Source: a virus
Direction: 5' to 3' (one strand)
IMG/VR virus record: IMGVR_UViG_3300029268_000081
Span: 1 to 32,159 of that record
DNA: 32,159 nt
A program made the position numbers and the translations under genes. Shown in pieces: positions 16,763-31,981 of the stretch; positions within the stretch are counted from its first letter, which is position 1, and each line of letters starts with the position of its first letter. A model generated the notes under the pieces. That model had not been told where the DNA came from. It made no database searches and worked only from the letters and a program-made list of their open reading frames with translations.

Positions 16763-17215
16763 ATGTCAGAAAAGAATTACACACCCGTAGAAGCTGCCAA
16801 GAAAGTCTTGGAGAAGTGTCAAGAAATGTACAATTCTCAAAAGATTGAAAAAGCTGAAGCTATTGATAAGTGTGGAGAAATGAAAGCTGAGAAAAAAGAA
16901 AAATTTAAAGCTGAACTTGATAAGGTTGAGGAAAAAGAAGTAGTTCAACCTCAGGGCGTTCAAGAAATGCATCCTAAGCTTAAAAGCTTCATCGAAAAGA
17001 GAAAAGCTAAAAAAGCAGCTAAAATGGAAAAGATGATGGGGATTGGAGAAAAAGCTCCTGTAGCTCCAGCAGCAGCTCCAAATACTATGGATAAGCCTAA
17101 AGCTTCAGCTAAACCTATGGCTCCGCAAGCTCAAAGCGCAGCTCCTGTAAATGCTCCTAAACCGGCTTTACCTAAAGTTGGTGGACAGATGAGCAAATCA
17201 GAAAAGAAGAAATAG
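16763..17215 (+). CDS. Lys/Ala/Pro-rich protein with an LKSFIEKR motif
   Basis: A 150-aa protein, unknown family. The N-terminal half is a charged helix (PVEAAKKVLEKCQEMYN to EKKEKFKAELDKVEEK). HPKLKSFIEKRKAKKAAKM follows at about residues 73-91. The last 60 residues are an Ala/Pro-rich disordered tail ending in SEKKK. It has a good ribosome site (AAAGGATAT) and lies one base from the next gene. The motif shared with two neighbours suggests they bind a common partner. Confidence 0.65.
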   Translation: MSEKNYTPVEAAKKVLEKCQEMYNSQKIEKAEAIDKCGEMKAEKKEKFKAELDKVEEKEVVQPQGVQEMHPKLKSFIEKRKAKKAAKMEKMMGIGEKAPVAPAAAPNTMDKPKASAKPMAPQAQSAAPVNAPKPALPKVGGQMSKSEKKK

Positions 17216-17216
17216 T

Positions 17217-17558
17217 ATGAGTAAGAAAAATAAAAAACAAAACGTTGAAGTAGAGCAAATTGAAGCAGCTATAGATGCTGCCGTTGAAGCAGCTCCCGAA
17301 GCTGCCGTTGAAGCAGCTCTTGAGAATACTCTTGAAGAAATGAGAGAAAAACGTAGAGAAGTTGGTGAAGCTAAGAAAGCTGCTAAGGTAGCTGAACTTG
17401 ACCAGAGAGACGAATTTAGAAAGTTTTTTGCTAAAAAACGTGAAAAACTAAGCCTTGATTCTTCTATGGAGCACATTTTGTGGTTACATTTTGTGGCAAC
17501 GGGACATGCTGAAAAAGAAAAATTTGAAGACGGCTTAAAACATTTTGGAATACATTAA
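17217..17558 (+). CDS. Hypothetical helical protein before the tail sheath
   Basis: A 113-aa protein. The basic N-terminus (MSKKNKKQ) precedes an Ala/Glu-rich helix containing tandem AAVEAAPEA/AAVEAALEN units, then a charged helix (EEMREKRREVGEAKKAAKVAELDQRD) and a compact end (MEHILWLHFVATGHAEKEKF). It could be a small chaperone or tail-assembly protein by position. No family recognised. Confidence 0.65.
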   Translation: MSKKNKKQNVEVEQIEAAIDAAVEAAPEAAVEAALENTLEEMREKRREVGEAKKAAKVAELDQRDEFRKFFAKKREKLSLDSSMEHILWLHFVATGHAEKEKFEDGLKHFGIH

Positions 17559-17574
17559 TAAGTAGGAGAACAAT

Positions 17575-19728
17575 ATGGCTCAAAGAATTACAACCAGTTT
17601 TGTAAACACCAACAGACCCGGTGCTTATTTCGACGTTAAAGTACGCTCTAACCCAGTTGGCGTAGCTTCAAGCGGTAACATTGTTATTATCGGGGAATCA
17701 TCTGCCGGTAAACAATTTGCTGACGAAGTTTTAAAAGATAACTTCTATACACCTGACCAATTGGACAGAGTACTTAGTAAGTATGTATCTGGACCAATCG
17801 TAGATGCTTTTAGAGCGCTATCATCTCCTAGCTCTGACGCTGACGTTACAGGTTCTGCAAGCAGAATCTATATTGCTAAAACAAACGATAGCTCAAAAGC
17901 TTCTGCTGTACTAGCTTCGTCTTATGGTTCACTTAGCGATAAGAACGTTGGTCTAGATGGTAATAAGTACTATTTCCAAGTTACTCAACTTGAAGATGAA
18001 GTAGCTCCGTCAGTTTCTGGCACAACTATTGCAACTTTGGGAGCCGCTCTTACAGGCGTTGAGTTTAAGGTTCGTGTTAACGGTGGAGCTGAAACTTTAA
18101 TTAATGTTTTCACTGGACCAACTACAGCTTACGACAGTATCGCTGAAGTTATTGCTCTTATTGACGCCGCTCTTCCTGCTGGATTAGCTTGTGTTGCTGG
18201 AGCTGCTACTGATTCAATCAAAATTGAAGCTGACGTTGACGCTGCCGCTAATCAAAAAGGTAACGGTAAGTCTTTTGAGCTTATCGATTCATCTCCGGGC
18301 GACTTAGCTGCTCTTGGACTTGACGAAGCTCTTTCAGTATCTTCTCAAGAACCTAAAATCCAATTGGATGTCAAGCGTACTGACAATAATACTAACGAAT
18401 CTTTTTCAGTTCTTGCTGAAGTAGCTCTATTGATCGGATATGCCGGTACAACCGCTACCGTTACTGTAAATGCTACAACTTTAGCTGCTACCGTTACTGG
18501 TGGAGCTGGCGCTAACCTTAGCGTTGTTTTAGCTCAATACGCAACTCTTGCAGATTTAGCTGCCTTTATCAACTCTCAGACTGGTTATTCTTGTTCTGTA
18601 GTTTCTGGTTCAGGTCAACTTCCTACTTCATCTCTTGACCAAGTGTCAGCAGTTGGAATTTGCTCTACAGCAGCTTCTGCTAAGTCGGGAAGAATCAAGA
18701 AAGCTCTTAGTAATTTTAAACAAAAAGTTAGTCAATCAGCAGTTGTTGACTTCTCAGCTACTGCAACTAAAGGTCTTCCTGATGAAATGAGCAATATTGC
18801 TTACTTGTCTGGAGGTGCTCTTGGTGCAACTTTAGCTGCTGACGTTATCAATGCAATCGATGAGTGTGAATCAATCAACGTTAACTTCGTAGTACCTCTA
18901 TTCTCTAGAAACGCTGCTAGTGATATTGCCGATGGTCTAACTGATTCATCTTCAACTTATACTATCGCTGCTGTTAACGCTGCTGTTAAGTCTCACGTAC
19001 TTAAAATGTCTACAGCTAAAATCAAGAAGCACAGAACCGCTTTCCTTAGCTTCTGGGATAATACATTTGCCTCAGCTCAGGCTGAAGCTTCATCTCTTGC
19101 TAACGCTCGTATTTCTCTTGCTTTCCAAAAGACAAGTCAAGTTAATGCTCAGGGCGATATTAAAGAATTCTTCCCTTGGCATACCGCTGCAATTGCTGCT
19201 GGTATGCAAGCTGCTGGATTCTACAAAGCCATCGTTAACAAGTTCGCTAACGTTATCAGCTTCAAAGACCCTTCTGGGTTTGATTCTGGTTCACCGGGCG
19301 ATATTGAAACAGCTCTTGACTCTGGATTGCTATTCCTCGAAAAAGGTGTAGTAGGTAATAAATGGGTATCTGACCAAACAACTTATGGTGTTGATACAAA
19401 CTTTGTTTATAACTCTATCCAAGCTATGTACGCTGCTGACTTAGTAGCTCTTGACCTTGCTAATAGCTTCCAAACTGCTTTCGTAGGTAAATCTTTAGCT
19501 GACGTTGACGCCTCTACAGGTCTTAGCTTCTTGGCTTCTAAGATGGACCTTTACAAGAAGCAAAAATTGATTGCTGCTAGTGATGACGCTCCTCTTGGAT
19601 TCAAGAACGCAAAAGTTGAAATCTCAGGACCTATCATGTCTGTAGGTGTAGAGATAAAACTAGCAACTGCTATTTACTTTATCCCAATTTCTATTGAGAT
19701 TTCACAAGTACAAAATAACGCTGCTTAA
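17575..19728 (+). CDS. Contractile tail sheath protein
   Basis: A 717-aa protein. The N-terminus RITTSFVNTNRPGAYFDVKV followed by SSGNIVIIGESSAGKQF is the usual opening of myovirus sheath proteins (R-PG-Y, then G-VaiiGes--G). The middle (about residues 130-350) has Ala/Thr-rich beta domains that make the protein surface. The C-terminal half holds the conserved sheath core (STAKIKKHRTAFLSFWDNTF and onward to VEIKLATAIYFIPISIEI). Immediate coupling to a tail-tube gene confirms the call. It contains the only GATC site outside the tail-fibre block (18432). A strong ribosome site (AGGAG) precedes it. Confidence 0.88.
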   Translation: MAQRITTSFVNTNRPGAYFDVKVRSNPVGVASSGNIVIIGESSAGKQFADEVLKDNFYTPDQLDRVLSKYVSGPIVDAFRALSSPSSDADVTGSASRIYIAKTNDSSKASAVLASSYGSLSDKNVGLDGNKYYFQVTQLEDEVAPSVSGTTIATLGAALTGVEFKVRVNGGAETLINVFTGPTTAYDSIAEVIALIDAALPAGLACVAGAATDSIKIEADVDAAANQKGNGKSFELIDSSPGDLAALGLDEALSVSSQEPKIQLDVKRTDNNTNESFSVLAEVALLIGYAGTTATVTVNATTLAATVTGGAGANLSVVLAQYATLADLAAFINSQTGYSCSVVSGSGQLPTSSLDQVSAVGICSTAASAKSGRIKKALSNFKQKVSQSAVVDFSATATKGLPDEMSNIAYLSGGALGATLAADVINAIDECESINVNFVVPLFSRNAASDIADGLTDSSSTYTIAAVNAAVKSHVLKMSTAKIKKHRTAFLSFWDNTFASAQAEASSLANARISLAFQKTSQVNAQGDIKEFFPWHTAAIAAGMQAAGFYKAIVNKFANVISFKDPSGFDSGSPGDIETALDSGLLFLEKGVVGNKWVSDQTTYGVDTNFVYNSIQAMYAADLVALDLANSFQTAFVGKSLADVDASTGLSFLASKMDLYKKQKLIAASDDAPLGFKNAKVEISGPIMSVGVEIKLATAIYFIPISIEISQVQNNAA

Positions 19729-19755
19729 TAACTAAGATTTTATAGGAGATATTAT

Positions 19756-20232
19756 ATGGCTAAAGCAAAAACAATGGTAGGAGCAAGAGCGAAAGTCTAC
19801 GTAGACAACGTTCTAGTAGGAATCTTTGATTCATGCGACTACTCAGTAAACGTAGGTACGGAAGCTATTCACCTTTTAGGTCGTTATAGCGCCGCTGAAA
19901 TCACTCCAACAAGTTATGAAGCTGTTTCTTTAAACTGCTCAGGATTTCGTTTGATTGGTAACGGTGGACATATTCTTCCAAAAATGCCTAAACTACAAGA
20001 CCTTCTTCAACTTGAAACAGTAACAATCGCTGTTACAGACAGAGCTGTTACAGACAGACAAGGCGCTGCCAATGCAGCTCCAATCCTAGTAGCTCAAAAC
20101 TGTGTTCCTACATCTTATGGAACCGGATATTCAGCTAAAGCAACTTCAAGAATTCGTATTTCATATATGGGTACTGTTGCTTACGATGAGTCTGGAGTTC
20201 AAGATGAAGGTGATGCTGTAAATCTTCCATAA
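19756..20232 (+). CDS. Tail tube protein
   Basis: A 158-aa protein directly after the sheath gene. The opening VGARAKVYVDNVLVGIFDSCDYSV is a beta pattern typical of phage tail-tube proteins, which form hexameric rings through which the DNA passes. Length and gene order fit. TAGGAG precedes the ATG. An intrinsic terminator starts 11 bases after the stop, marking the end of the sheath-tube transcript. A 15-base tandem duplication sits inside the gene. Confidence 0.82.
   Translation: MAKAKTMVGARAKVYVDNVLVGIFDSCDYSVNVGTEAIHLLGRYSAAEITPTSYEAVSLNCSGFRLIGNGGHILPKMPKLQDLLQLETVTIAVTDRAVTDRQGAANAAPILVAQNCVPTSYGTGYSAKATSRIRISYMGTVAYDESGVQDEGDAVNLP
20029..20058 (+). repeat. 15-base tandem duplication in the tail tube gene
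   Basis: GCTGTTACAGACAGA occurs twice in direct succession (20029-20043 and 20044-20058). It encodes AVTDR-AVTDR in frame. The exact identity indicates a recent duplication tolerated in a loop of the tube protein. Confidence 0.85.
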
Positions 20233-20242
20233 TTAACGGTTT

Positions 20243-20265
20243 GCCCATGGATGGGCTTTATTTTT
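20243..20265 (+). terminator. Intrinsic terminator after the tail tube gene
   Basis: GCCCA (20243-20247), loop TGGA, TGGGC (20252-20256), then TTTATTTTT. The stem is short and the U-tract is interrupted by one A, so partial read-through into the small gene at 20278 is expected. Confidence 0.7.
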
Positions 20266-20277
20266 AAGGCGCTTAAT

Positions 20278-20583
20278 ATGAGTGAAAAACAAATCATATA
20301 CGACCTTGTAAAAGAAGTTAGGGAAGAGCAAAAAGATATCAAGAATGATATTTCTGATATAAAACAAGTACTTGCCTTAAATACAGCTTCCTTGCAAGAA
20401 CACATGAGAAGAACTGACGTTCTTGAGAAATTATACTATTCTCAAACTGAGCGTATCGATTCTCTTGAAGAGCCTAAAAAACTTAGAGAACTCCTGTTAA
20501 AACGATATGTTAAGGTAGCGGCTTTTTTAACAGCTACATTGACTTTAGCCGCAGCGGTAGCTAAATGGAAAGGGTTTATTTAA
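20278..20583 (+). CDS. Coiled-coil protein with a C-terminal membrane helix (XhlA-like)
   Basis: A 101-aa protein started at ATG 20278; the in-frame ATG at 20251 lies inside the terminator stem and is rejected. Residues 1-65 form a coiled coil (LVKEVREEQKDIKNDISDIKQVL, then LQEHMRRTDVLEKLYYSQTERID). Residues about 76-96 form a membrane helix (YVKVAAFLTATLTLAAAVAK). This matches the layout of XhlA/haemolysin-type lysis-accessory proteins and small phage tail-associated membrane proteins. It sits between two terminators, so it is expressed only by read-through or from an unseen promoter. Confidence 0.6.
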   Translation: MSEKQIIYDLVKEVREEQKDIKNDISDIKQVLALNTASLQEHMRRTDVLEKLYYSQTERIDSLEEPKKLRELLLKRYVKVAAFLTATLTLAAAVAKWKGFI

Positions 20584-20611
20584 TAAAAAATACACAATTA
20601 GAGATTTATAG

Positions 20612-20637
20612 AAAGGAGCTAACGCTCCTTTTTTTTT
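20612..20637 (+). terminator. Strong intrinsic terminator
   Basis: AAAGGAGC (20612-20619), loop TAAC, GCTCCTTT (20624-20631), continuing into a T-run to 20637: an 8-bp perfect stem plus U-tract. It ends the head/neck/tail-tube region. A TAATCTTTA-type box follows 13 bases later and restarts transcription. Confidence 0.9.
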
Positions 20638-20649
20638 GGTTTAAAAGAG

Positions 20650-20664
20650 TAATCTTTATAGTAT
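20650..20664 (+). promoter_or_regulatory. Putative phage-specific promoter, TAATCTTTA-N3-TAT
   Basis: TAATCTTTA, TAG, TAT directly after a strong terminator and 43 bases before the ATG at 20707. This terminator-promoter arrangement is the best contextual support that the motif is a promoter. Confidence 0.65.
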
Positions 20665-20706
20665 GGAGTCATAGGGTTGACTTCTTAAGGAAACGGTTAG
20701 GGTATT

Positions 20707-21645
20707 ATGGCTATCGAAAGAAAGCTGGGCTTAGTTAGTCCGGTATTATTCACATCTAATGGAACCGCTGGCGGCTTAGTCACAGTTCCTGATACTAAAG
20801 GCTTTGTAGTTAAAGCCCAAGTAGTTCTTACTGCCGATACACTACCTACCTTACAATTAGAAATCAAAAGAGTCCTTTCTTCAACACAATTCTTAGTGGG
20901 TGAAAAAGGCAAGATAGAGCAAAGGGCTAATATTCAAGCCTATACTACAGCTCTTAATTCATCTATATACCAGCCAGAGCAAGACCGTCCCGGCATCATC
21001 CTAGAACAGCATGAAAGAGCAGTATACGCTGAAGAGCCAATTATGGCTAAACGGTCTATACTAGTAGACGAGTTTGGTGAATACTACTCTAAAGAAAATC
21101 CTTTACCTATAGATATAGAAATGGCTGTCGAAAACTTAAACGTAGATGTTAAGTTAGACGCTTTTTCTGCTACTCCCGATTCTGCCTTGAGTGTAGGAAC
21201 AGAAGACGGTACTGCTAGCGGTGTTAAACATGTCATTAAAGTAGGTAGTGATTTAAACCTTAGAGTTAAAGATGAATCTGCTATTGTTGTATTAAATGAT
21301 ATTGACAGCGGTATTGATACTGCAAATCTTCATTTGGCAGATATTAGCAGTGCGTTGTCAAGTCCTTTACAAATAGACCAACCTGTAATTGTGGCTGGAA
21401 CAAAAGATGGCTCACCTACTGGTGAAGTGTTTGTAAACGTAAACAACGTTAAACAACAGATACTAGCTTCGCACAACAGAGAGCAGTTAATCGTCTACGC
21501 AGACTTTGGAACAAAGAATCAAAGAGTTATACAAATTGATTATTCAAGTCCAACCTTTGCTGGTTTTGTCGCACAAAAATTAATATCATATACATTAGTA
21601 AGCGGAAGATATAGAAGAGATTCAATCAATTGGTCTGTAATTTAA
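20707..21645 (+). CDS. Tail/baseplate-associated virion protein
   Basis: A 312-aa protein that starts the tail-fibre operon. The N-terminal beta domain (GGLVTVPDTKGFVVKAQVVL, LQLEIKRVLSSTQFLVG) leads to EQDRPGIILEQHERAVYAEEPIMAKRSILVDEFG. This is a pattern I associate with phage neck or tail proteins of large myoviruses, by recollection only. The middle is a repetitive beta segment (KLDAFSATPDSALSVGTEDG; VIVAGTKDGSPTGEVFVNV). The C-terminus is a compact domain ending RDSINWSVI. It contains no GATC site, so it belongs to the native backbone rather than the adjoining island. Confidence 0.6.
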   Translation: MAIERKLGLVSPVLFTSNGTAGGLVTVPDTKGFVVKAQVVLTADTLPTLQLEIKRVLSSTQFLVGEKGKIEQRANIQAYTTALNSSIYQPEQDRPGIILEQHERAVYAEEPIMAKRSILVDEFGEYYSKENPLPIDIEMAVENLNVDVKLDAFSATPDSALSVGTEDGTASGVKHVIKVGSDLNLRVKDESAIVVLNDIDSGIDTANLHLADISSALSSPLQIDQPVIVAGTKDGSPTGEVFVNVNNVKQQILASHNREQLIVYADFGTKNQRVIQIDYSSPTFAGFVAQKLISYTLVSGRYRRDSINWSVI

Positions 21646-21671
21646 CAAAATAGGCAGAATAAGGAGAACAT

Positions 21672-24002
21672 ATGAAAATAGTAAATGCAAACCTTCTGGA
21701 CAGTGTCGGAAGTTCTTATGATCAAACAAGAACAACATTACAAGGAAGAGCTACTCAGAAAACTATAGATGGTAAATCAGTACTTGGACCACCTCTTACT
21801 AAATTTATGGACTTTCAGACAGATACTGGTGGAGCCGTTATGGGTACTACTCTGTTTGCGTCAGAAAATAACCGACTATTTATTGTTGGTGCAGTTGTAG
21901 CTGGTGCTGCTTTTGCTCCTATCTTTCTTTATGATTTCGATTTTGCGACTGGAACTCATTCTTATGTTGGTCGTATTAACGTAAGTATTCCCAATAACCC
22001 TGTTACTACAGCTCATGCAGTACGAAGTCTTAAAGTATTGGATGTTGGCTTAACAGGATGGAAAGTGTATCTAATCACTGCTGCATCAGTAGGTCCAGTT
22101 TCTCATGGTGGAACCTTTTTAATTAATAGCGTAGATAAAGCTGATTTTTCTCAAATTTCTCCTCCTACTATTGCATTCGCTACTGGTAACAACCAGAAAG
22201 CAGTTTATAAAATATGTGAAGCCCCTGTGCAAACAGCAGCTTCTGTTACTATTACTGTAGCATCTCCGGGTAAAGTACAGTACGTATCCCATCCATTCGC
22301 AGTGAATGATCAAGTGTTATTTACTTCTGGAACAGTTCCTACAGGATTGCTTTTAAACACTGTATACTTTGTAAGAAATCCAGCATTAAATGATTTTGAA
22401 CTTGCTTTAACTTCTGGAGGAACTTCAATCGTTACGACTGGTTCTGCTGGTACGGCTATTCTACATTTATCTAAAACTGAAGTCGCTGCTATTGGTGCTG
22501 TTATTGATACTGTTTCTAATAGAATGTACACTCACAGTGGTTTGGCTACGTCTCATTCTTTTTATGTTAGAGATATGACAGTAGCTCCTACTTATAGTAT
22601 TGCATCTGCTATCAACATTACACTCGCATCGCCCGGTAAGGTGCAGTATGCTTCTCATCCATTCCAAGTGAACGATTCTATTATTTTTACTGCTGGTATT
22701 GCTCCGGGCGGTTTGGCTTTAAACATTGTTTACTATGTACGAAATCCTAGCTTAAATGATTTTGAAGTTTCTTTAACTTCAGGTGGAGCTTCCATAAACA
22801 CAACAACCGTTGGTTCTGTTGATATTGGCAGAGCTTTTGGAGAAAGTCCTTCTCAGTGGCTTTTTAAAACAGGTGTTCTTCCAGCTCTTGCTGGTGTTAT
22901 TTTAGCTACAGATTGCGAGAATAAAGCTATTCCTACAAATGCTCCTATCAACGGAAGTCTTTTGAATGGAAACTCTTGTATTTTCCTCGCCACTACTACA
23001 AACTTATATTTAGGTCTTATGTCTGAATTGGTTAAGGGTGGAATTACTTGGGCTAGTTTAACTACTTCAAATCTACTTGGTACTCCCAACCAAATCGTAG
23101 CTCCTACAGCTACTTTTGCCAGTTGGTCTGATTCTTTGGATCAAGCTTTGTATATTTGCAATACTTTAAAAGTTGTAAATAAGAAAGTACAAAACAATGT
23201 GATCAATGCCATCTATGGTCAAATGGGTATAACTTATTACGAAGGTATTGTACTTCCTACAAATGCTCAGCTAGAATTTGCAGCCGCTCCTACTAATTTT
23301 ACAAATCAGGCAGGATGGCAGTTTGTAATGGGACCAGCTGCCACAATAGGTCAACGTGGTCTTATTGCTCTTGATTTGCGATCTGATTGCTTGACAGATT
23401 ATTCTTATGTTGTTTCTAAAGTTATGACTATTCCTAACGGTCAGATTAAAAACCTAACAGTTTTTGAAGAGTTAGTTCAAACATCTGGAACAGTGGATAT
23501 GTTTTATAGAACTACAGGATTTGGATCGGTAACTGGTAACTGGATTTATCTTGATCACTATCAAGATTTGTCTGGTCTTTCTATTACAGGGCAAATTCAA
23601 TTTAAGATTACATTCAACGTTCAGTCAACTGGAAAGTCGTCTCCAATTCAAGTATCGGGTCTATTGTTAGGATACGAAGCAAATGAAGAACTATCGGATA
23701 ATTGGGAATACAGCTACGATGACTCGTCTACTTCTGTTCCAACAAGAGTAGGGTTTAGATTGAAGTCTACATACGCTACATCTATCCCAACTAGTTTACG
23801 ATTCAGAGCTTATGATTTAAGTAGTACTTTACTAATTAGTCAGAGTATTACATCAAATCCTAGTAACTTCCAGTATTCTACAGACGGTGGAACTACTTGG
23901 TTAAGTCTTGGAACTATTCCGAACGTAGTTGGAACACTTGTTCGTTATAACTTTACAAGTCCACCGGGAGTGGATGTACGCCCTAGTTTAAAGGATAGCT
24001 AA
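21672..24002 (+). CDS. Tail fibre/tail surface protein with duplicated beta modules
   Basis: A 776-aa beta-rich protein. Two copies of an inserted module occur at about residues 194-257 and 315-379. Both share ASPGKVQY-SHPF-VND, then F-(S/A)G--P-GL-LN-VY-VRNP-LNDFE--LTSGG-SI. This is the 'HGlsvGDxV' type of module that recurs as cassettes in phage tail proteins. A propeller-like N-terminal half (FLYDFDFATGTHSYVGRI, WKVYLITAASVG) and a C-terminal beta-sandwich follow. Eight GATC sites mark it as part of the acquired block. GGAG lies before the ATG and it overlaps the next gene by TAATG. Expected on the tail tip or fibres. Confidence 0.7.
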   Translation: MKIVNANLLDSVGSSYDQTRTTLQGRATQKTIDGKSVLGPPLTKFMDFQTDTGGAVMGTTLFASENNRLFIVGAVVAGAAFAPIFLYDFDFATGTHSYVGRINVSIPNNPVTTAHAVRSLKVLDVGLTGWKVYLITAASVGPVSHGGTFLINSVDKADFSQISPPTIAFATGNNQKAVYKICEAPVQTAASVTITVASPGKVQYVSHPFAVNDQVLFTSGTVPTGLLLNTVYFVRNPALNDFELALTSGGTSIVTTGSAGTAILHLSKTEVAAIGAVIDTVSNRMYTHSGLATSHSFYVRDMTVAPTYSIASAINITLASPGKVQYASHPFQVNDSIIFTAGIAPGGLALNIVYYVRNPSLNDFEVSLTSGGASINTTTVGSVDIGRAFGESPSQWLFKTGVLPALAGVILATDCENKAIPTNAPINGSLLNGNSCIFLATTTNLYLGLMSELVKGGITWASLTTSNLLGTPNQIVAPTATFASWSDSLDQALYICNTLKVVNKKVQNNVINAIYGQMGITYYEGIVLPTNAQLEFAAAPTNFTNQAGWQFVMGPAATIGQRGLIALDLRSDCLTDYSYVVSKVMTIPNGQIKNLTVFEELVQTSGTVDMFYRTTGFGSVTGNWIYLDHYQDLSGLSITGQIQFKITFNVQSTGKSSPIQVSGLLLGYEANEELSDNWEYSYDDSSTSVPTRVGFRLKSTYATSIPTSLRFRAYDLSSTLLISQSITSNPSNFQYSTDGGTTWLSLGTIPNVVGTLVRYNFTSPPGVDVRPSLKDS

Positions 24003-25093
24003 TGTCTAATTTACTTTTCTCTGGTGGAACTATCTCTCAAGGTACTTCCCTCGGAACAGTGTTTGGAAATCATTTAGTAACTGGAGGGTCGGTTCAATCG
24101 ACCTCTCAGGCTTGTATTTTAGATATTACTCCTCCTATTTTTTCAGGAATTGGATTCCTTACTTTAGGAGCGTTAGGGCAATTACAAGCTCAGTGGAATG
24201 CTGCTACAGACGTATCTAACGATATTAGATACGAAGTATATGTTAAAGCAAGTTCTCCAACTGGTCTTTTTAATTCTGCAAATTTATCTATAGTAACAAC
24301 GCAGCTACAGGCTAACATTTTCTCTCTTGGAGATGGAACACTTCTTCAGACTGCAGCTACCTATTATGTTGGAGTCAGAGCTACAGACGCTGTTGGTAAT
24401 AGAGATAATAATATTGTAAGTTTAAGTCAAATCAGTCCGGGTATTACTGGAGCTTTAAACGCTTCTATTAGTGGTGTTTTTAACATAAATGATTTAAACG
24501 AATTAATAGCTTCTTTCTGGGTAACAGACAGTGAAGGTGTAATTACTAATCCAATGCGATTAGGAACAGCTTCTTATGTTATATATGATAGAAATGGTGG
24601 AATAGTTCCGGGCATGTCAGAGTCAGGAATACTTGCCGATTCTGAAGGATTCTTTGAAATTGTTCCAGTTGCTTCTATCTTGGACTTAGATAATAATTTC
24701 TACGCAGCAAAAGTAACTATATTTATAGATGGAGTTAGTGTAACATATAACTTGCCAGTTCTACACGCTGCTGCAGGGCATCAATATGAATCTAGAGCCA
24801 TATTCTCGATCAGTTCTTCTAATGAATTACAGGGTACTTTATGGTGTACTAAAGATTCTGAACTGATGAGCGATGGAGTTCTAGGTGCTGCTAGTTACAC
24901 TATCTATGATAAGAATGGGAATTCCATTGGTATAACTGAGTCAGGAATTATGCCAGATGTAAACGGTTATTATCAAATTTCTCCTGTTAATGCTTCTTCT
25001 ATTCTAGATTTAACTCACTATGTTGTTAAAATTATTATCCTAGCTTCTGGGGAAAATAGAATAGGAACTGTCGGTATAACTTTAGGTGAATAA
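24002..25093 (+). CDS. Tail protein with an FN3 domain and two duplicated C-terminal domains
   Basis: A 363-aa protein. Residues about 42-140 form a fibronectin type III-like domain: ITPPIFSGI, LQAQWNAATDVSNDIRYEVYV, AATYYVGVRATDAVGNRDNN. This is a common module of phage tail proteins that contact host surfaces. Two homologous domains follow (about residues 157-258 and 265-360). Each has F-I---NEL----W-T--SE, a G-ASY-IYD-NG turn, SESGI/TESGI and a FEIVPV/YQISPV strand, so the protein grew by duplication. It shares stop/start bases with both neighbours, indicating coupled translation. Confidence 0.7.
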   Translation: MSNLLFSGGTISQGTSLGTVFGNHLVTGGSVQSTSQACILDITPPIFSGIGFLTLGALGQLQAQWNAATDVSNDIRYEVYVKASSPTGLFNSANLSIVTTQLQANIFSLGDGTLLQTAATYYVGVRATDAVGNRDNNIVSLSQISPGITGALNASISGVFNINDLNELIASFWVTDSEGVITNPMRLGTASYVIYDRNGGIVPGMSESGILADSEGFFEIVPVASILDLDNNFYAAKVTIFIDGVSVTYNLPVLHAAAGHQYESRAIFSISSSNELQGTLWCTKDSELMSDGVLGAASYTIYDKNGNSIGITESGIMPDVNGYYQISPVNASSILDLTHYVVKIIILASGENRIGTVGITLGE

Positions 25094-25425
25094 TGTCAAA
25101 TATATCTGACAATGCGAGACAAAGATTTCGACAGAAGCTGCAAAGCTTAGAATTTGCAGATGAAATTGTAGATGGATTGAATGAGTTTTTGCAAAGATTC
25201 GTTCTAATCTCTAATCAATTCTCTTCTAATGATTGGAATACAGTCCATACATATAGTCCAGTAGAGGATAGCGCAGTTATGCTTACGTTCTCTGTTATAG
25301 CAAAAGAACTGGACACTGGAAAATATGCTGGATTTAAGAAGACAGCAATGTTTTATAAATACAACAGTCTTGTGTCAGGATTGACAGTGCAGCAGTCAGA
25401 CTTTTATTTAAAGAAGATACTATAA
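25093..25425 (+). CDS. Small tail-module protein
   Basis: A 110-aa protein, unknown family. The N-terminal helix (ISDNARQRFRQKLQSLEFADEIVDGLNEFLQRFVLIS) precedes a beta part (AVMLTFSVIAKELDTGKYAGFKKTAMFYKYN). It overlaps the genes on both sides by one base (TAATG), so it is co-translated with the fibre genes. It may be an adaptor or assembly factor for the tail fibres. No GATC site falls inside it, which its short length makes uninformative. Confidence 0.6.
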   Translation: MSNISDNARQRFRQKLQSLEFADEIVDGLNEFLQRFVLISNQFSSNDWNTVHTYSPVEDSAVMLTFSVIAKELDTGKYAGFKKTAMFYKYNSLVSGLTVQQSDFYLKKIL

Positions 25426-25973
25426 TGGCAACAAGACGCATAAAATCTACGCTTAACAATAAGTACACCCAGCCATTGAAATTACGAATGGGCAGGAAAC
25501 TTGTGTTAACTTTAAACTGTGACTACAATTCTGTTCTGTTTACGCAGGCTCATAGAGCGTCTACTCCGAAAGACTACCAACTAAAGGTATGGGCAAAGTT
25601 TGCTCAAGATAACTTTGATGGAATTCACATTAGATCGTTCATTGAGAAAGATACTGAGGTTATGCAATCTTTTAATCACGTATTTGATATTTATACAGTC
25701 GCCACTGATTCCAACTGGGCGGAAACTTTCGTAACATCTAAAGTAGGAGTTATCCTATCGGACGGATCGTTCAAATGCTCAGTAACATCGTCAGACTTCC
25801 CTTCTTCTATTTCTATAGATGGAGAGCTAACTCTTGCGATAAAAACAACGTGTTCTAGACAAAACTCCAAGTTTGCTAAGAAAATATATGTAAATCACTT
25901 GGGTATATACGACAGCGTTGTGAGATTGAGACAGGATGTGGAATTCCTTGATATTACGAAATTGGATGAATAA
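25425..25973 (+). CDS. Tail-fibre-module structural protein
   Basis: A 182-aa beta-rich protein. The C-terminus VNHLGIYDSVVRLRQDVEFLDITKLDE resembles a conserved ending of phage tail proteins encoded beside fibre genes (recollection, not a search). The N-terminal part (YTQPLKLRMGRKLVLTL, YQLKVWAKFAQDNFDGIHI) is strand-rich. Two GATC sites (25633, 25766) place it in the acquired block. Likely a fibre-attachment or baseplate-peripheral protein. Confidence 0.6.
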   Translation: MATRRIKSTLNNKYTQPLKLRMGRKLVLTLNCDYNSVLFTQAHRASTPKDYQLKVWAKFAQDNFDGIHIRSFIEKDTEVMQSFNHVFDIYTVATDSNWAETFVTSKVGVILSDGSFKCSVTSSDFPSSISIDGELTLAIKTTCSRQNSKFAKKIYVNHLGIYDSVVRLRQDVEFLDITKLDE

Positions 25974-25990
25974 TTAATAGGACGAAAAAT

Positions 25991-27214
25991 ATGACTAAAC
26001 TATCAAAAGATACTAAAGAAAGAATAATTATATCACTTACTAGCGAGCCTGTTGGTAAGGAAGTTATTAAAGCTATTGAAGATGGCGATGATGTTCTTAG
26101 TGGAAACGGTGCTCCAAGCAATTCTCTAGGTGAAAACGGTAATTTATATATAAATCTTTTAAATGGTGATTTGTATAAAAAATACAACAATATCTGGAAA
26201 TTACAGCTAGACGGTCAAACAGCAGTAGAATCTGCTTTTGAAGATATTGAACAGCCAGTAGGATTTAAAGATCCAGATCAAGTAAGCTTATCCGTAGATG
26301 ATATCTCAAGAACTCTTACCGTAACTCCTGTCGGAGCATCTTTTGTTTGTTTTGTAAAAGGTAAGAGAATAGAAATTTCTTCTACTTTACAAGCTACATG
26401 GTCTACTGCTCATGGATTACACTTTTTTTATATTGACGCAACAGGTAGTTTAATTGTTACGACTACTTTTACAGATGCTATCATTACAGAATACACCATA
26501 GTTTCGATGGTATATTGGGATGCTACCGCTAATAAACACATCATATTTGCAAATGAAAAACACGGCATTAAAATGTCTCCTGTTACTCACCAATATTTAC
26601 ATAGAACTAGAGGCGCGGCTTTTGATAGCGGCGGTAAATTAGTTAATTTTGTAGTAAATGGCGGAGGAAGCAGCAATACCCACGCTCAATTTACATCAAA
26701 TTCTGGCGTAATTTGGGATGAAGATATTAGACTATCTTATTCGGCTCAAGCTCAGATACCTGTGTTTTACAGAAGCGGCGCTGGCGGATTGTGGAAACGT
26801 AAAGAAGCTAACAGTTTCCCCATAATTATGTCTGGAGAGGAAGGGTATAACGGAGAGCAAGGAAGACTTCCGTACAATAGTTTTGATGGTTCCAATTGGG
26901 GTCTAACTCAAGTTTCAAATAATGATTTTGTCTTAGTTCATATTTTTGCTACAAATGATATTGAATTCCCTGTCATAGCAATACAAGGTCAAGTAGTATA
27001 TACTAATAAACCCAACGCCAGAGCTGGTGCTTTAAAAGAAATTAAAGAACTATCGGGACTGCCTGTTTACGAATTTTGTCCTCTAGGTTCTGTAATATTT
27101 CAAACTGGTAGCTCTTATACTAACACTCCAAAAGCTCAAATTGTTTCCACTTTAGACGGAGATAACTACGAAGACCATAGAACTGAATCTATCAGACCGG
27201 GGAGTTTGGCTTAA
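25991..27214 (+). CDS. Tail fibre/receptor-region protein
   Basis: A 407-aa protein. Residues about 36-75 have the fibre-type motif GNGAPSNSLGENGNLYIN, then NGDLYKKYNNIWKLQ, matching the 'GaPs-slG-nGDlYid--tGdvYkk--g-W' module widespread in phage fibres. The remainder is beta-rich and ends SIRPGSLA. Both of its GATC sites (26270, 26276) are in the first third and the last 930 bases have none. The boundary between acquired and native sequence may therefore fall inside it, as expected for recombination within a fibre gene. Confidence 0.65.
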   Translation: MTKLSKDTKERIIISLTSEPVGKEVIKAIEDGDDVLSGNGAPSNSLGENGNLYINLLNGDLYKKYNNIWKLQLDGQTAVESAFEDIEQPVGFKDPDQVSLSVDDISRTLTVTPVGASFVCFVKGKRIEISSTLQATWSTAHGLHFFYIDATGSLIVTTTFTDAIITEYTIVSMVYWDATANKHIIFANEKHGIKMSPVTHQYLHRTRGAAFDSGGKLVNFVVNGGGSSNTHAQFTSNSGVIWDEDIRLSYSAQAQIPVFYRSGAGGLWKRKEANSFPIIMSGEEGYNGEQGRLPYNSFDGSNWGLTQVSNNDFVLVHIFATNDIEFPVIAIQGQVVYTNKPNARAGALKEIKELSGLPVYEFCPLGSVIFQTGSSYTNTPKAQIVSTLDGDNYEDHRTESIRPGSLA

Positions 27215-27216
27215 AT

Positions 27217-27507
27217 ATGAATAATCTATACGAAAAATTTAAAAAACAAATAGCTTCTTGGCAGAAAAATGGAGTCCCTATCTTATTCTGGCGTGATGAG
27301 CAAAAGAAAGCTCCTAGCGTTAGTTTGACTATGATGATTATATCTTTTGTTTTATGCGTATTTTCTCTTATAAACAAAGCTGCTAAAGTGGTTGAAGGTG
27401 TAGATGTAGAGAACAGTCTACAGCTATTTATGATATGTGCGGGTCTTTATTTTGGTCGTAGTTACGGAAAACTTAAACAATCGGAAGATAAAAAGCCTGA
27501 GCAATAA
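27217..27507 (+). CDS. Holin-like small membrane protein
   Basis: A 96-aa protein with two membrane segments (about residues 35-52, VSLTMMIISFVLCVFSLI, and 67-82, SLQLFMICAGLYFGRS), a charged N-terminus and a charged C-terminal tail. The 'PSVSLT...LYFGRSYG' layout resembles small phage membrane proteins found at the end of tail operons, often annotated as holins. It starts two bases after the fibre gene and overlaps the NlpC/P60-like gene by one base. Holin function is inferred from size, topology and neighbourhood. Confidence 0.5.
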   Translation: MNNLYEKFKKQIASWQKNGVPILFWRDEQKKAPSVSLTMMIISFVLCVFSLINKAAKVVEGVDVENSLQLFMICAGLYFGRSYGKLKQSEDKKPEQ

Positions 27508-27992
27508 TGATGGAACAAATAACTATAGGTTTTTCTAAATCCAGAAAGAAATTTGCAATAGGAAGCTGGCTTATTAGAGCCTATATGGGTACGCCATATA
27601 GTCACGTTTATCTTAAGTTTTACTCTCAATCCTTGAATAGAACATTGATTTACGAAGCCGTTGGCGGCGGAGTTAGATTTGTAGGAAGTAAGCAATGGGA
27701 AGACCACGCTGAAGAAGTTAAATCATACACTATTAATGTAAAGCAATGTAATAGAATAAGGCTGCTTCAGTTCTGTATAGATAATGCTGGAATAGAGTAC
27801 GCTTATAGTCAAAATGCCGGATTGGTTGTGGCTGATATATTCAATCTAAAGAAAAACCCATTTCGAGGTGGGCTTAATTGTTCTGAAGTGATTGGAGAAA
27901 TTTTTGCTTTGGAAGGCTATAAACTACATAAGGACGCCAATCTCTTGACGCCCTTAGATATCGATAAAATATTAGAATCCAACCCCAAGTAA
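27507..27992 (+). CDS. Permuted NlpC/P60-like papain-fold enzyme
   Basis: A 161-aa protein. H33 in GTPYSHVYLKF, E50 in LIYEAVGGGV and C125 in LNCSEVIGEIF give the His...Glu...Cys order of the circularly permuted NlpC/P60 group (YiiX-like). The N-terminal FSKSRKKFAIGSWLIRAYMGTPYSH is typical of phage members. Members act on peptide or acyl bonds; here a peptidoglycan amidase/endopeptidase or lipid-directed role is possible. There are two tandem ATGs (27507 and 27510) and the first overlaps the previous stop (TAATG). Its 3' end overlaps a broken gene on the other strand by 21 bases. Confidence 0.68.
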   Translation: MMEQITIGFSKSRKKFAIGSWLIRAYMGTPYSHVYLKFYSQSLNRTLIYEAVGGGVRFVGSKQWEDHAEEVKSYTINVKQCNRIRLLQFCIDNAGIEYAYSQNAGLVVADIFNLKKNPFRGGLNCSEVIGEIFALEGYKLHKDANLLTPLDIDKILESNPK

Positions 27993-28174
27993 TACACCTA
28001 CGCTTTCATTTATATCTACCTCAGCTCCCACAAACACATTGCTACCTACATTGCGCTGATACTGAACTCCTAAAGTAGTTTCTCTTCTTTAGTAGGTACG
28101 GCAGAGCCAGTTTCAAAATGAACTGCATAACCGCTGGTTGATAGAAACATTAGTACAAGTAGTAAAAATTTCAT
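27972..28174 (-). pseudogene. Frameshifted small outer-membrane-like gene
   Basis: From ATG 28174 (preceded by AAAGGATAATT) the frame reads a signal peptide MKFLLLVLMFLSTSGYA and continues VHFETGSAVPTKEEKLL to a TAG at 28072-28070. In the -1 frame the sequence continues as ETTLGVQYQRNVGSNVFVG, then AEVDINESVGVLLGVGF and TAA at 27974-27972. That looks like the end of a small beta-barrel protein with a terminal Phe. The shift must lie within about 28088-28072 (an A/G-rich AAAGAAGAGAAA tract). It is a decayed gene, a sequencing or assembly error, or, less likely, programmed frameshifting. It fills the whole gap between the two flanking genes. Confidence 0.65.
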
Positions 28175-28198
28175 AATTATCCTTTTTGGTTTAAGCTC

Positions 28199-28966
28199 TT
28201 AGTTTCTTTTTTCGTTTGTAATTCTGTAATCACTTGTTACTGTAAAAGAACAAGAAGAGTTTTGTACTGCATCAGTTGTAATGTAATTACCCGGAGCTAT
28301 AAGAGCCAATCTATCCTGATGAGGTCCACCGTCATAAAGAGCTAGGATACGACCGGTAGATAATTTAATAAACACTTCGTCGTTTGCAAATTCAACTCCA
28401 CAAGGATTGATGATTTCAGTAATATAGATTCCAGAAGCATTTTGACCGGCAGCGCCTGTTTGACCAGTAGTACCCGTCTGACCAGTTGCTCCGGTATCGC
28501 CCTTATCACCTTTAGCTCCGTCTACAACTACAGCAGAAGATGTTCCGCAAGTAATCGTGGCTGAGTTACCTACTTTATTAACAGAACAAGAAGTGCCATT
28601 TAAACCATCTTTACCGTCTTTCCCATCAGAACCGTTCGTTCCGTTTTCTCCGTCTTGACCATTCTGACCGTCTTCTCCATCTTCTCCGTCTTGACCATCA
28701 GAGCCATTACGACCATTGCAAGATACATATTGTGTCTGTACAGTATCTTCTGAATCAAAATCAAGACTTTGGTTTATATCAAGTGCTAAGAACACCATAG
28801 TACCACCAGCAGCGCCACAAATTTCAGGATTAGATTCAGAGCTAGATACTACAGAGTAACCATCTTTACCATCAGCTCCATCTTTACCTTCTACCGTTAC
28901 AGTTTTGGTTTGTTTGCCGCAACCAATAGTTATCGCAAGAATCATAGTTAGAATTAGAAATTTCAT
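28199..28966 (-). CDS. Lipoprotein with collagen-like Gly-X-Y repeats
   Basis: A 255-aa protein. The signal sequence MKFLILTMILAITIGC has a lipobox (TIGC, Cys16). Collagen-like triplets occur in three tracts: about 27-35 (GKDGADGKDG), 84-126 (NGSDGQDGEDGEDGQNG and onward) and 148-176 (GAKGDKGDTGATGQTG). They are separated by Cys-containing linkers. The C-terminal ~70 residues form a beta-like domain (INPCGVEF, EVFIKLSTGRILALYDGG, PGNYITTD, CSFTVT). It is expected to be anchored in the outer membrane as a trimeric stalk. The domain style is reminiscent of Bdellovibrionota lipoproteins, a low-certainty host clue. AAGGAGG precedes the ATG. Possible roles are superinfection exclusion or altered adhesion. 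Confidence 0.8.
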   Translation of the reverse strand: MKFLILTMILAITIGCGKQTKTVTVEGKDGADGKDGYSVVSSSESNPEICGAAGGTMVFLALDINQSLDFDSEDTVQTQYVSCNGRNGSDGQDGEDGEDGQNGQDGENGTNGSDGKDGKDGLNGTSCSVNKVGNSATITCGTSSAVVVDGAKGDKGDTGATGQTGTTGQTGAAGQNASGIYITEIINPCGVEFANDEVFIKLSTGRILALYDGGPHQDRLALIAPGNYITTDAVQNSSCSFTVTSDYRITNEKRN

Positions 28967-28996
28967 AGTTCCTCCTTTTAAAAGAACCGTAGTTTT

Positions 28997-29004
28997 ATTA
29001 TACC
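28997..29004 (-). promoter_or_regulatory. -10 promoter box of the collagen-like lipoprotein gene
   Basis: On the minus strand GGTATAAT lies immediately after the helicase stop codon, about 30 bases before the lipoprotein start. A TTCAAA at 29024-29019 could be a weak -35 with a 16-base spacer. It shares the GGTATAAT core with the sites at 8151 and 31989. Confidence 0.6.
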
Positions 29005-30033
29005 TTATTTAATATAACTTTGAAAAGCTTTTTTCTTCATTAAGTCAGCAACAGCATAAAGAATCTTTACTTCTTTATTAAAATTCGACTTCTTAGCTGT
29101 TGATATGTAGAACTTTTTGACACCATTTGGATGCTTTCTAAGTATACGTGCAAACAACTGGTTACGAGAATCTAAGTCTTTAGAAGACTTAAGGTCAATA
29201 AGAGCAGTAACCATATTATCAGAGAAGCCTAGAATTCCTTTATTAACTACGATAAGAGTATCAGCCTCACCATTCTTAAAACGATTAAGCTGCTCATTTT
29301 TAGAATCACTATTGGTAGATACAGCTACCTTACGACCGTTGTTATTAAGATAAGAGCCAAGATATTCAGCATCCTTAACGGTCTTACAAGCAATCATGAT
29401 TTTAGAACGGTCGAATCTTGGGTCAGTACAAAGCTTTTTAAAAGCTGTATTATAGTCATCGAGTACGTTATGACCCCAAACTTTAACTACATCGATAACA
29501 ACTTCAGAGTAAACTTCAGCATCAGCAAGCTCTTCGCCTGAGATATAGTACATGCCGTATAAAGACTTAAGCGAGTTCTTATTTGCGCTATTGTAGATAC
29601 CGGGAGAGCCAGTCATTAGGATTTGATGTTTAGGCTTAAAATTAGCTACGATTTCATCTATCATAGAACAGCCGTAGAAGTGATGAGCTTCATCAATTAC
29701 TAATACATCCATTGAAGTGATTTTGTGGCGTGAAGCTGGGATACCAACCTGAACCTGAGAGTTAGAGCCAAGCTCGCCAAAAGTAAACTCAGGCTTAACG
29801 AAGCCATCAGTAAACCCTTCGAGCATTTGGTCTTTAAGTAAGTTTTGATTGTGAGTAAGAACAACAATCCTATAAGAAGGAAAGTCCTTAATAAACATAT
29901 TTAAAGTGTGAATAATAATAGAGCTTTTACCGCCGCCCGGAGCGACTGCCAAAACAGCAGCTCGGTAATTACCCGATACTGCCATTTCGTATATTTTCTT
30001 AGCTGCTGGTATTTGGTATGAGTAGTTATTCAT
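29005..30033 (-). CDS. SF2 DNA/RNA helicase, UvsW-like
   Basis: A 342-aa helicase. Motifs in order: Q-tip-like YQIPAAKKIYE (6-16), Walker A APGGGKSS (31-38), motif Ia VVLTHNQNL (57-65), Walker B DEAH in VIDEAHHF (112-119), motif III TGSP (141-144), and motif VI QLFARILRK (292-300). These form a complete core without extra domains, shorter than T4 UvsW (about 500 aa). Likely roles are branch migration, R-loop unwinding or replication restart. ATG 30033 was chosen because the body begins MNNYSYQIP. A GTG at 30048 is in frame, but the TATAAT box lies between the two. No ribosome site is well placed, so the message may be leaderless. Confidence 0.82.
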   Translation of the reverse strand: MNNYSYQIPAAKKIYEMAVSGNYRAAVLAVAPGGGKSSIIIHTLNMFIKDFPSYRIVVLTHNQNLLKDQMLEGFTDGFVKPEFTFGELGSNSQVQVGIPASRHKITSMDVLVIDEAHHFYGCSMIDEIVANFKPKHQILMTGSPGIYNSANKNSLKSLYGMYYISGEELADAEVYSEVVIDVVKVWGHNVLDDYNTAFKKLCTDPRFDRSKIMIACKTVKDAEYLGSYLNNNGRKVAVSTNSDSKNEQLNRFKNGEADTLIVVNKGILGFSDNMVTALIDLKSSKDLDSRNQLFARILRKHPNGVKKFYISTAKKSNFNKEVKILYAVADLMKKKAFQSYIK

Positions 30034-30039
30034 ACCTAG

Positions 30040-30045
30040 ATTATA
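30040..30045 (-). promoter_or_regulatory. -10 box ending 6 bases before the helicase ATG
   Basis: TATAAT on the minus strand, in the 17-base gap between the spanin-like gene's stop and the helicase ATG at 30033. Transcription normally starts 6-8 bases after a -10 box, so the RNA would begin at or next to the ATG. No clear -35 was found. Confidence 0.5.
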
Positions 30046-30050
30046 CACGA

Positions 30051-30515
30051 TTAAAACTCTAATGCAAGCCCTAAACCAACTCTTTTATCAGTAGTAACTA
30101 AAGCCTGAGCTTTTAAGCTACCGAAAATTGGTATAGCCGCAGTCACACCATATTCAAGCTTATCACTAAAGCGTTGACCATTAGCAATTGCAAGTGCTCC
30201 AAGCGTCAAGCCTGACCCTTTTTTAACTACAACTTCTTTTTTTGAATCAATTTGAGTTGTGTTGTTAGTTTGAGTAGTTGAAGTAGAATCGTCGGTAATT
30301 ACAGTAGTGACGGTTTTAGTTCCGTCTTTGTTAATTACCTCAGTAATTATTGTTTTAACTTTCTTTTTCTCTTCTTTCTTTTCTTTATAGACTTCAACGT
30401 ATTTAACAACCTCTTTAGTTCGCACCTCAGACTTTGGTTGAATTACGTAACGACCAATAAGAATACCAGCAATAGCAATAAGTCCGAATAGACCATACTT
30501 CTTTAACGTTTCCAT
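30051..30515 (-). CDS. N-terminally anchored periplasmic protein (i-spanin-like layout)
   Basis: A 154-aa protein started at ATG 30515, which has a perfect AGGAGG at 8 bases. Residues 5-24 are a membrane helix (KKYGLFGLIAIAGILIGRYV). A charged helical stretch (EVRTKEVVKYVEVYKEKKEEKKKVK) follows, then a Thr-rich linker and a C-terminal beta segment (EYGVTAAIPIFGSLKAQALV, TTDKRVGLGLALEF). The anchor-plus-coil layout resembles an inner-membrane spanin, but the beta-rich end is not typical and no partner o-spanin is next to it. Proteins of this layout are common in phages with no fixed function, to my recollection. Confidence 0.65.
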   Translation of the reverse strand: METLKKYGLFGLIAIAGILIGRYVIQPKSEVRTKEVVKYVEVYKEKKEEKKKVKTIITEVINKDGTKTVTTVITDDSTSTTQTNNTTQIDSKKEVVVKKGSGLTLGALAIANGQRFSDKLEYGVTAAIPIFGSLKAQALVTTDKRVGLGLALEF

Positions 30516-30522
30516 GAGCCTC

Positions 30523-30714
30523 CTAAGCAGCCATACTGTATTCAGCGGTTTTATCCGCATCAAGTTCTCTTTTAATTTTCATAGCCATAGTAAACATAGT
30601 CTTAGCTGTTTCAAGAGATTGTTTCCAACCTTCTGAACCAGCAGCTTTCTGAAGCTTAGCATAATTGATATAAGTTCTAACATTCATCATACACATTTCA
30701 TATTTGTCCATCAT
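30523..30714 (-). CDS. Small Met-rich helical protein
   Basis: A 63-aa protein from ATG 30714 (a second ATG follows directly), with AGAGAGG about 5 bases before. It is helical and rich in Met, Lys and Ala (YEMCMMNVRTYINYAKLQKAA, then TAKTMFTMAMKIKREL). Its stop overlaps the AGGAGG of the following gene, so the two are probably co-translated. It has its own TATAAT box just upstream. No family recognised. Confidence 0.6.
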   Translation of the reverse strand: MMDKYEMCMMNVRTYINYAKLQKAAGSEGWKQSLETAKTMFTMAMKIKRELDADKTAEYSMAA

Positions 30715-30735
30715 ACGTACCTCTCTATACGTACC

Positions 30736-30741
30736 ATTATA
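30736..30741 (-). promoter_or_regulatory. -10 box before the small Met-rich gene
   Basis: TATAAT on the minus strand, 21 bases before ATG 30714 and next to the stop codon of the upstream gene. The context AGTGTATAAT is nearly the same as at the helicase box (TCGTGTATAAT). It would allow this gene and those downstream to be expressed apart from the first two genes of the arm. Confidence 0.5.
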
Positions 30742-30743
30742 CA

Positions 30744-31376
30744 CTATTCAGAGAGGATTGCAACAGCCCATTCAGGTACGTCTTTTCGGGTAACTAGCCA
30801 TTCAGACTTAAGAACTTCCTTCTGAAACATAACATTAAGCTCATGACCAATACGGTGAGCTAATAGGTCAAGCTGAGAGTTATAGAAGTAGTCAAAGCGG
30901 TGTTTAGCCCATGCTGAAATGATAGCACGTTGCTTCAGGTGTTGACTATCTCCATAGGTCGGCTCAACGATAACGGTCTCAGTAATAACCTCTCTAGGAC
31001 CAACTACAGCAAGACCAGCATCATTAGCATCTTCAACTCTAATAGGAAGTTTCTTATCTTGATAAATAGTTATTAACAGAGACCTGTACTCTTCCTCAAC
31101 AGTATTCTTCCAGCCTTTATACTTACCTGTATCCTTCTTACCTTCAGCAGTAACTAGGACTGTTTGAAGCTCTTTAGCAAATGTAATAGCTGTATTGTAG
31201 TTTACGCCGCCGTCAGCAAATACATCGATAAGCTGAGCGATAAGGTCGTCTCTGTTTTTAGCTAAAAACCTATCAGTGCCTGAATCAGCCATTGCTTGCT
31301 TCCAAGTAATAAAGAGCTGTCTGGCATATTCTGATTGAGTTAGTTTTTCTGAATCATCGATGTTAGGTGTTTTCAT
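30744..31376 (-). CDS. Hypothetical protein of the leftward arm
   Basis: A 210-aa soluble protein, family not recognised. It is mostly helical: SEYARQLFITWKQAM, DLIAQLIDVFADGGVNYNTA, EEEYRSLLITIYQD, then KQRAIISAWAKHRFDYFYNSQ and HRIGHELNVMFQKEVLKSE. It overlaps the upstream gene by ATGA, so the two are translationally coupled and may form a complex. Position next to a helicase and a repeat-rich control region hints at replication or early takeover, but nothing in the sequence proves it. Confidence 0.7.
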   Translation of the reverse strand: MKTPNIDDSEKLTQSEYARQLFITWKQAMADSGTDRFLAKNRDDLIAQLIDVFADGGVNYNTAITFAKELQTVLVTAEGKKDTGKYKGWKNTVEEEYRSLLITIYQDKKLPIRVEDANDAGLAVVGPREVITETVIVEPTYGDSQHLKQRAIISAWAKHRFDYFYNSQLDLLAHRIGHELNVMFQKEVLKSEWLVTRKDVPEWAVAILSE

Positions 31377-31963
31377 TTGATATCCTTTGAAGCAATTCTG
31401 GCATTAGTTTCTTCGATTATGTCTTTAGCTGATTTTAGTTTAGAAGGCTTAACGTCAGTATTATCATTAATACTTTCATTAGACTCATAGAACTCTAATA
31501 TAGCTCTTTCTTCAGCCTTGTAATAATCTTCAGCGGCTAATCGATGAAGTTCTTTGACTAAAGAAGGTAGTATTAATTGATAAACTCCAGCCTTACTTCC
31601 AGTAGGAGGTCTTAAAGTCTTAAAGAATTGGTTGTTATTATCACTAATCTGAGCCATCCATTTAGAATAGCCATCGTTACCAAGGCTTAGTTTATGGTTA
31701 ACATCCTCTTTCATAAGTTTAATGCAATAATCCCTAGTCATCATAAAAGTCTGTTTCTTTTGGGTAAATAGAGCATTAAGTAGAGTAGTAGTCCTTTTAA
31801 TCTCAGGATTTGGGAAAGAATACATTCTTTCAAAGAAAGGCAGTCCAGTCCTATCATCCTTCATACCAACTCTAGCATCTAGGTCAGAAGCAAGTGAGGT
31901 ACTTATCAGGAAAAACTCTTTGTTGTTACTAAGTATAAGTTCAGCAATCTGGTCAATATTCAT
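31373..31963 (-). CDS. Hypothetical protein, first gene of the leftward arm
   Basis: A 196-aa protein. I chose ATG 31963 (MNIDQIAELIL), with ACGGAG 6 bases before. An in-frame upstream start at 32005 would overlap the promoter and repeats. The protein is helical with a basic middle (EIKRTTTLLNALFTQKKQTFMMTRDYCIKL) and an acidic-to-basic tail (DVKPSKLKSAKDIIEETNARI). No family recognised. It is the promoter-proximal gene downstream of a TTGTGGTATAAT promoter and five 13-bp repeats, so it is probably expressed early. It might be a regulator acting on its own control region. Confidence 0.7.
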   Translation of the reverse strand: MNIDQIAELILSNNKEFFLISTSLASDLDARVGMKDDRTGLPFFERMYSFPNPEIKRTTTLLNALFTQKKQTFMMTRDYCIKLMKEDVNHKLSLGNDGYSKWMAQISDNNNQFFKTLRPPTGSKAGVYQLILPSLVKELHRLAAEDYYKAEERAILEFYESNESINDNTDVKPSKLKSAKDIIEETNARIASKDIK

Positions 31964-31981
31964 CAAATTCTCCGTTAATTT

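Follow-up and report, generated by a model that had tools for sequence, protein, structure and literature searches.

A 32,159-nt stretch of viral DNA (record IMGVR_UViG_3300029268_000081; the whole stretch is termed the window here) covers part of the genome of a phage with a contractile tail, a distant relative of Myxococcus phage Mx1. Our analyses indicated that the tail-fibre module of this phage was in all probability (about 0.85) imported by recombination into a backbone purged of restriction sites and was derived from a lineage that does not avoid GATC.

The window contains 13 GATC sites, twelve within 21720 to 26276 (21720, 22308, 23139, 23201, 23380, 23524, 23553, 24808, 25633, 25765, 26270 and 26276) and the remaining one at 18432, in agreement with the original prediction. 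A codon null was generated by permuting synonymous codons within a gene set, such that the proteins and codon usage were retained (300 shuffles). The genes outside the fibre block exhibited 3 GATC sites relative to an expected ∼91.3 to 91.9 ± 6.1 (z, −14.6), with the lowest of the 300 shuffles having 78 sites; the four fibre genes (21672 to 25973) had 10 relative to an expected 12.0 ± 2.5. The depletion persisted, therefore, when codon usage was preserved. A further proposal, that Asp before a C-initial codon is encoded by GAC outside the block and by GAT inside it, was also borne out. Outside the block, GAC was used 79 times and GAT twice in this context (126 and 388 times, respectively, elsewhere), while GAT was used in 4 of 4 cases inside the block. 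Ser codons following nGA outside the block were AGY in 10 instances and TCN in none, ATC was used for Ile after a G-ending codon in 1 of 77 cases, and all three GATC reading registers were depleted. No change in GC content was detected at the block relative to the rest of the window.

All tetramers, merged by strand, were ranked against the codon null for the genes outside the block. GATC was among the three most depleted, the others being GGCC and CGCG; all three are palindromes (ratios of 0.04, 0.06 and 0.18, respectively), and the next most depleted tetramer was CCCC, with a ratio of 0.54. Outside the block, there was 1 GGCC site compared to ∼26.4 to 28 expected, 1 CGCG site compared to a small expected count of ∼7.5 to 7.8 and no CCWGG site compared to 21.3 expected. 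Inside the block, CCWGG was again absent (6.1 expected), as was GGCC, with low power due to an expectation of 2.2. The window phage avoids at least four sites, namely GATC, GGCC, CCWGG and CGCG, of which the original prediction noted GATC only. Strong depletion was seen only for sequences known to be recognised by type II enzymes, with other tetramers being much less affected, and has the form expected of type II restriction-site avoidance. Two other deviations from the codon null were observed outside the block: an excess of AGCT (259 observed and 191 expected) and an absence of CAGCTG (9.2 expected).

The proposal of import from a phage lacking GATC pressure was strengthened by detection of a donor-like phage. 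Searching with the 776-aa fibre protein recovered a 75-kb contig, IMGVR_UViG_3300028027_000057 (L027). In a DNA comparison covering 18 kb, L027 matched the window only at 21496 to 25972 (81% identity over 21496 to 25404 and 79% over 25402 to 25972), with no match in the flanks, and the whole L027 record contained no sheath homologue at an E value of 1e-5. Over 68 kb of open reading frames, the observed and expected counts in L027 were 225 and 236 for GATC, 55 and 54 for CGCG, 17 and 78 for GGCC, and 4 and 58 for CCWGG. This palette is consistent with that of the module in the window, where GATC is normal and CCWGG and GGCC are absent. The 19% DNA divergence indicates that L027 is a relative of the donor rather than the donor. 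The module genes for the 110-aa and 182-aa proteins are separated in L027 by ∼2.5 kb (11733 to 14287 of its record) that the window lacks, and another module-carrying contig, L043, has an insert of ∼2.5 kb at the same place.

Searching with the sheath gene recovered two near-identical contigs (L002 and L003), four sisters (L004, L005, L013 and L014) with 83 to 89% DNA identity to the window and a set of deeper relatives (L006 to L012) with ∼64 to 69% identity over the sheath region; no DNA similarity of the window to named phages was found. A near-identical contig, G001, extended the GATC-poor region ∼8.2 kb further upstream (1 GATC site in the 15.8 kb read) and ended at window position 21436, adjoining the left edge of the module. 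L003, which is derived from another sample, was 99.97% identical across the left joint and carries the left part of the module. No second contig was found over the right joint, which is known from the window contig alone.

Three of the sisters, L004, L013 (whose whole record is termed L070) and L014, share the site avoidance and the 83 to 89% DNA identity only outside 21161 to 25887, similarity stopping at the first of these positions and resuming at the second, with the exception of one segment of the fibre genes that is 68% identical. In the L070 backbone, the observed and expected counts were 1 and 25.3 for GATC, 0 and 8.6 for GGCC, and 0 and 7.4 for CCWGG. At the fibre locus, the sister has the same gene order and the same spacing before gene 25991 but a different allele, the proteins of which are 51, 61 and 38% identical to those of the window, with the 110-aa gene being unmatched. 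The closest alleles to that of the sister were those in L029 and L045 (84 to 86% DNA identity). The window and sister lineages, therefore, carry different fibre alleles, each being nearest to alleles found on other backbones. The sister module had 6 GATC sites relative to ∼12.7 to 12.8 expected (P of ∼0.03), while its nearest alleles, L029 and L045, had 9 and 13; this module may be part-way through GATC purging. GATC was present at normal levels in the outgroups L006 to L012, indicating that GATC avoidance is a property of the clade formed by the window and its sisters. The palette varied among these relatives: in L006 and L007, GGCC and CCGG are avoided whereas GATC and CCWGG are not, and L011 exhibits no clear avoidance of any site.

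Coordinates of the module, its joints and the flanking backbone are given in Table 1. The sheath protein matched phrog_279 (E value of 1.3e-27), and the module gave tail-fibre-like profile matches. Structure prediction for the 776-aa protein was too poor for use (mean pLDDT of 57), and a sequence search with this protein found no solved structural relative. The 363-aa protein is predicted, with moderate confidence, to consist of consecutive Ig/FN3-like sandwiches. Both module edges were sharp and located at or near conserved segments. On the left, the N-terminal part of the product of gene 20707-21645 was 81% identical to the sister protein, and residues 206 to 312 were 50% identical to L027. 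On the right, the edge lies within the 3′-terminal ∼85 bases of gene 25425-25973 (25887 to 25973), the final ∼38 bases of which form a candidate site for a homologous crossover. The right edge had been placed inside gene 25991-27214, but the product of this gene is 86% identical to that of the sister and the gene belongs to the backbone. As the imported DNA ends at ∼25972, the sites at 26270 and 26276, both inside this gene and the only GATC sites in the right backbone, are outside the module. The sister reads GACC and TCTC at 26270 and 26276, in a stretch that is locally more variable, and the two sites are best seen as local changes in a backbone gene.

Table 1. Features of the window relevant to import of the tail-fibre module (window coordinates; aa, amino acid identity)
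Feature	Position	Strand	Observation
Left backbone (head/tail genes, among them sheath gene 17575-19728)	1..21160	+	GATC-free except for 18432
Mosaic gene with left joint	20707..21645	+	N-terminal ∼150 to 175 residues backbone; residues 206 to 312 donor-like
Putative left recombination edge zone	21161..21496	+	Matches neither sister nor donor-like phage at DNA level
Putatively imported tail-fibre module	21496..25972	+	10 GATC sites, expected density; 79 to 81% DNA identity to L027
776-aa tail-fibre-like protein	21672..24002	+	87% aa to L027; ∼52% to sister and 15 other alleles
363-aa all-beta protein	24002..25093	+	86% aa to L027; 61% aa to sister
110-aa protein	25093..25425	+	97% aa to L027; unmatched in sister
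182-aa protein	25425..25973	+	88% aa to L027; 38% to sister
Putative right joint: conserved 3′ end of gene 25425-25973, ending DVEFLDITKLDE*	25935..25972	+	Near-identical in window, L027 and sister
Backbone, right part	25973..32159	.	GATC-poor; 83 to 88% DNA identity to sister where aligned

Maximum-likelihood trees of fibre and backbone genes were in strongly supported conflict, with the fibre gene pairing the window with L027 (support of 100/100) and gene 25991 pairing it with L070 (100/98). The palettes of module and flank were then compared in 17 module-carrying records, discordance being defined as a site present at <0.25 of expectation in the flank and >0.5 in the module. Only the window passed this threshold. 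The sister (6 of 12.7) fell just under it and was weakly discordant, while in the other carriers the module palette followed that of the flank. One of these carriers, L046, had no GATC in either its flanks (25.9 expected) or its module (7.5 expected), indicating that GATC is dispensable in the module proteins. As the window alone was clearly discordant and GATC is dispensable, the module is likely to have moved into the lineage of the window. Where the window and L027 can be aligned, they have 8 and 7 GATC sites, respectively, of which 5 are shared, indicating that there has been no net purge of GATC. L046 itself (IMGVR_UViG_3300042453_003688; 48.6% GC) has no GATC in 12.5 kb, including the fibre module, and exhibits no strong depletion of GGCC, CGCG or CCWGG.

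These results are consistent with a scheme in which the lineage of the window would have resided for a long time in hosts with type II restriction enzymes cutting GATC, GGCC, CCWGG and probably CGCG, and avoided sites would, due to this restriction, have been removed from the backbone by synonymous changes. Homologous recombination would then have replaced ∼4.5 kb of tail-fibre genes, with crossovers inside gene 20707-21645 on the left and, on the right, in gene 25425-25973 at its conserved 3′ end. The source would be a different phage lineage, infecting hosts in which CCWGG and GGCC are restricted and GATC is not, such that the module may have had few CCWGG and GGCC sites and normal GATC on arrival, with too little time or selection since import for GATC to be purged. 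We infer that restriction enzymes were the selecting agent, as the palette is palindromic, multi-site and lineage specific, and that the import was recent compared with the time needed for purging. Searches of 84,980 species genomes, including their prophages, with the sheath and fibre proteins detected no relative. Self-protection by a phage-encoded DNA methyltransferase was rejected, as neither PF02086 nor PF00145 was detected in 19 records comprising the window and its relatives, several of which are fragments.

A stronger version of import, compatible with it, is that acquisition of the module was accompanied by a completed host switch, moving the phage from GATC-restricting hosts to hosts restricting only CCWGG and GGCC and leaving the GATC-poor backbone as a fossil of the former host and the module under no present purging. 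The normal GATC content of the module, with no net loss relative to L027, the expected cost of twelve block sites in a GATC-cutting host, the apparent GATC permissiveness of the donor-lineage hosts and the fact that L003, from a second sample, has an identical left module part are all in keeping with such a switch. Backbone GATC has, however, barely recovered (3 of 92 expected), and depletion in the independently imported module of the sister (6 versus ∼12.8; P of 0.03) suggests that purging continues there; we regard the switch as possible, with the balance tilted somewhat against it. It is improbable that GATC was selected against by something other than an MboI/DpnII-type enzyme, such as a methyl-dependent DpnI/Mrr-like enzyme, a GATC phosphorothioation defence or Dam/MutH-linked repair. 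Each of these is a known source of selection centred on GATC; in 46 of 46 phages whose hosts bear the enzyme, GATC was under-represented, the site being scored as Type IIM (PMC6286503), and Mrr and phosphorothioation have been discussed for GATC-free haloviruses (PMC7230728). Ordinary type II restriction would, however, account by a single mechanism for the co-avoidance of GGCC, CCWGG and CGCG.

An assembly chimera, in which a foreign fibre contig was joined to the backbone, would fit with the end of G001 beside the left edge and with the single contig over the right joint; it is rendered very unlikely by the L003 contig spanning the left joint and by the location of both joints where the sister keeps gene order and spacing with a different allele. 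Retention of GATC in the fibre genes through a functional need, for regulation or a required codon pair, would explain the clustering of sites there but is less credible still and was rejected, due to the homologous L046 module lacking GATC altogether in GATC-free flanks; that only 5 of 8 window sites in the aligned region are common to L027 also argues against it. An origin in codon usage or base composition has next to no probability and was likewise rejected, given a minimum of 78 sites among the shuffles compared to 3 observed and a block GC content like that of the rest.

Several other genes in the window were noted. A 579-aa protein encoded in the head/tail cluster (11925 to 13664, plus strand) has at its N terminus a minimal CRISPR polymerase (mCpol) domain, matched over the full domain by PF18182 of Pfam (E value of 3.4e-16), followed by a very acidic low-complexity tail, and resembles Panoptes OptS (PDB 9mnr; E value of 4e-8). 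This protein is conserved in relatives, and weakly in Mx1, and is possibly virion associated. Homing-endonuclease-like genes of the HNH type (4135 to 5037, plus strand) and the GIY-YIG type (14911 to 15480, plus strand) are present in the structural region. In a convergent operon, a collagen-like repeat fibre (28199 to 28966, minus strand) is only 39% identical to its sister homologue, compared to 94% for the product of the neighbouring gene (29005 to 30048), and probably represents a further variable surface gene.

Avoidance of restriction sites is commonly summarised as a single value per phage genome and is here partitioned by module. As the imported piece fits the palette of the donor lineage, scans for palette discordance could reveal recent module imports, could give clues to the restriction systems of unknown hosts and could provide a rough clock for receptor-module swaps without culture. 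Were a host switch to have occurred, phage palettes could be read as a record, and as a rough clock, of earlier hosts and of exchanges of receptor modules. In the literature, most subscription journals being outside the scope of the search, no description of discordance in restriction palette at the level of a module was found.

Tail-fibre modules are exchanged among phages by replacement of the receptor-binding genes as a unit between conserved flanks. The window resembles such exchanges in that one gene is a fusion of a resident N terminus and an incoming C terminus, but differs in that the restriction palette of the donor is readable in the imported DNA. The nearest named relative of the backbone is Myxococcus phage Mx1 (OR576727.2), with 44% amino acid identity for the sheath and 30% for the mCpol-like gene; this phage is distant and was compared on few window genes, and a shared host group is not implied. 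Short palindromic type II sites are specifically missing from prokaryotic viruses, as in the window, with GATC under-represented in all 46 phages having a matching host enzyme (BMC Genomics 2018, PMC6286503). A text search of that study gave no mention of mosaic, horizontal, recombination or part of the genome, whereas avoidance in the window differs sharply between genome parts. Haloviruses of the HF1 group lack GATC and CTAG, the absence of GATC being read as protection against host defences, and also have divergent regions (PMC7230728); GATC is reported to be absent genome-wide in those isolates, whereas one module of the window has normal GATC. Both avoidance of restriction sites and exchange of tail modules are already known, and the window is a clean example of the two jointly.
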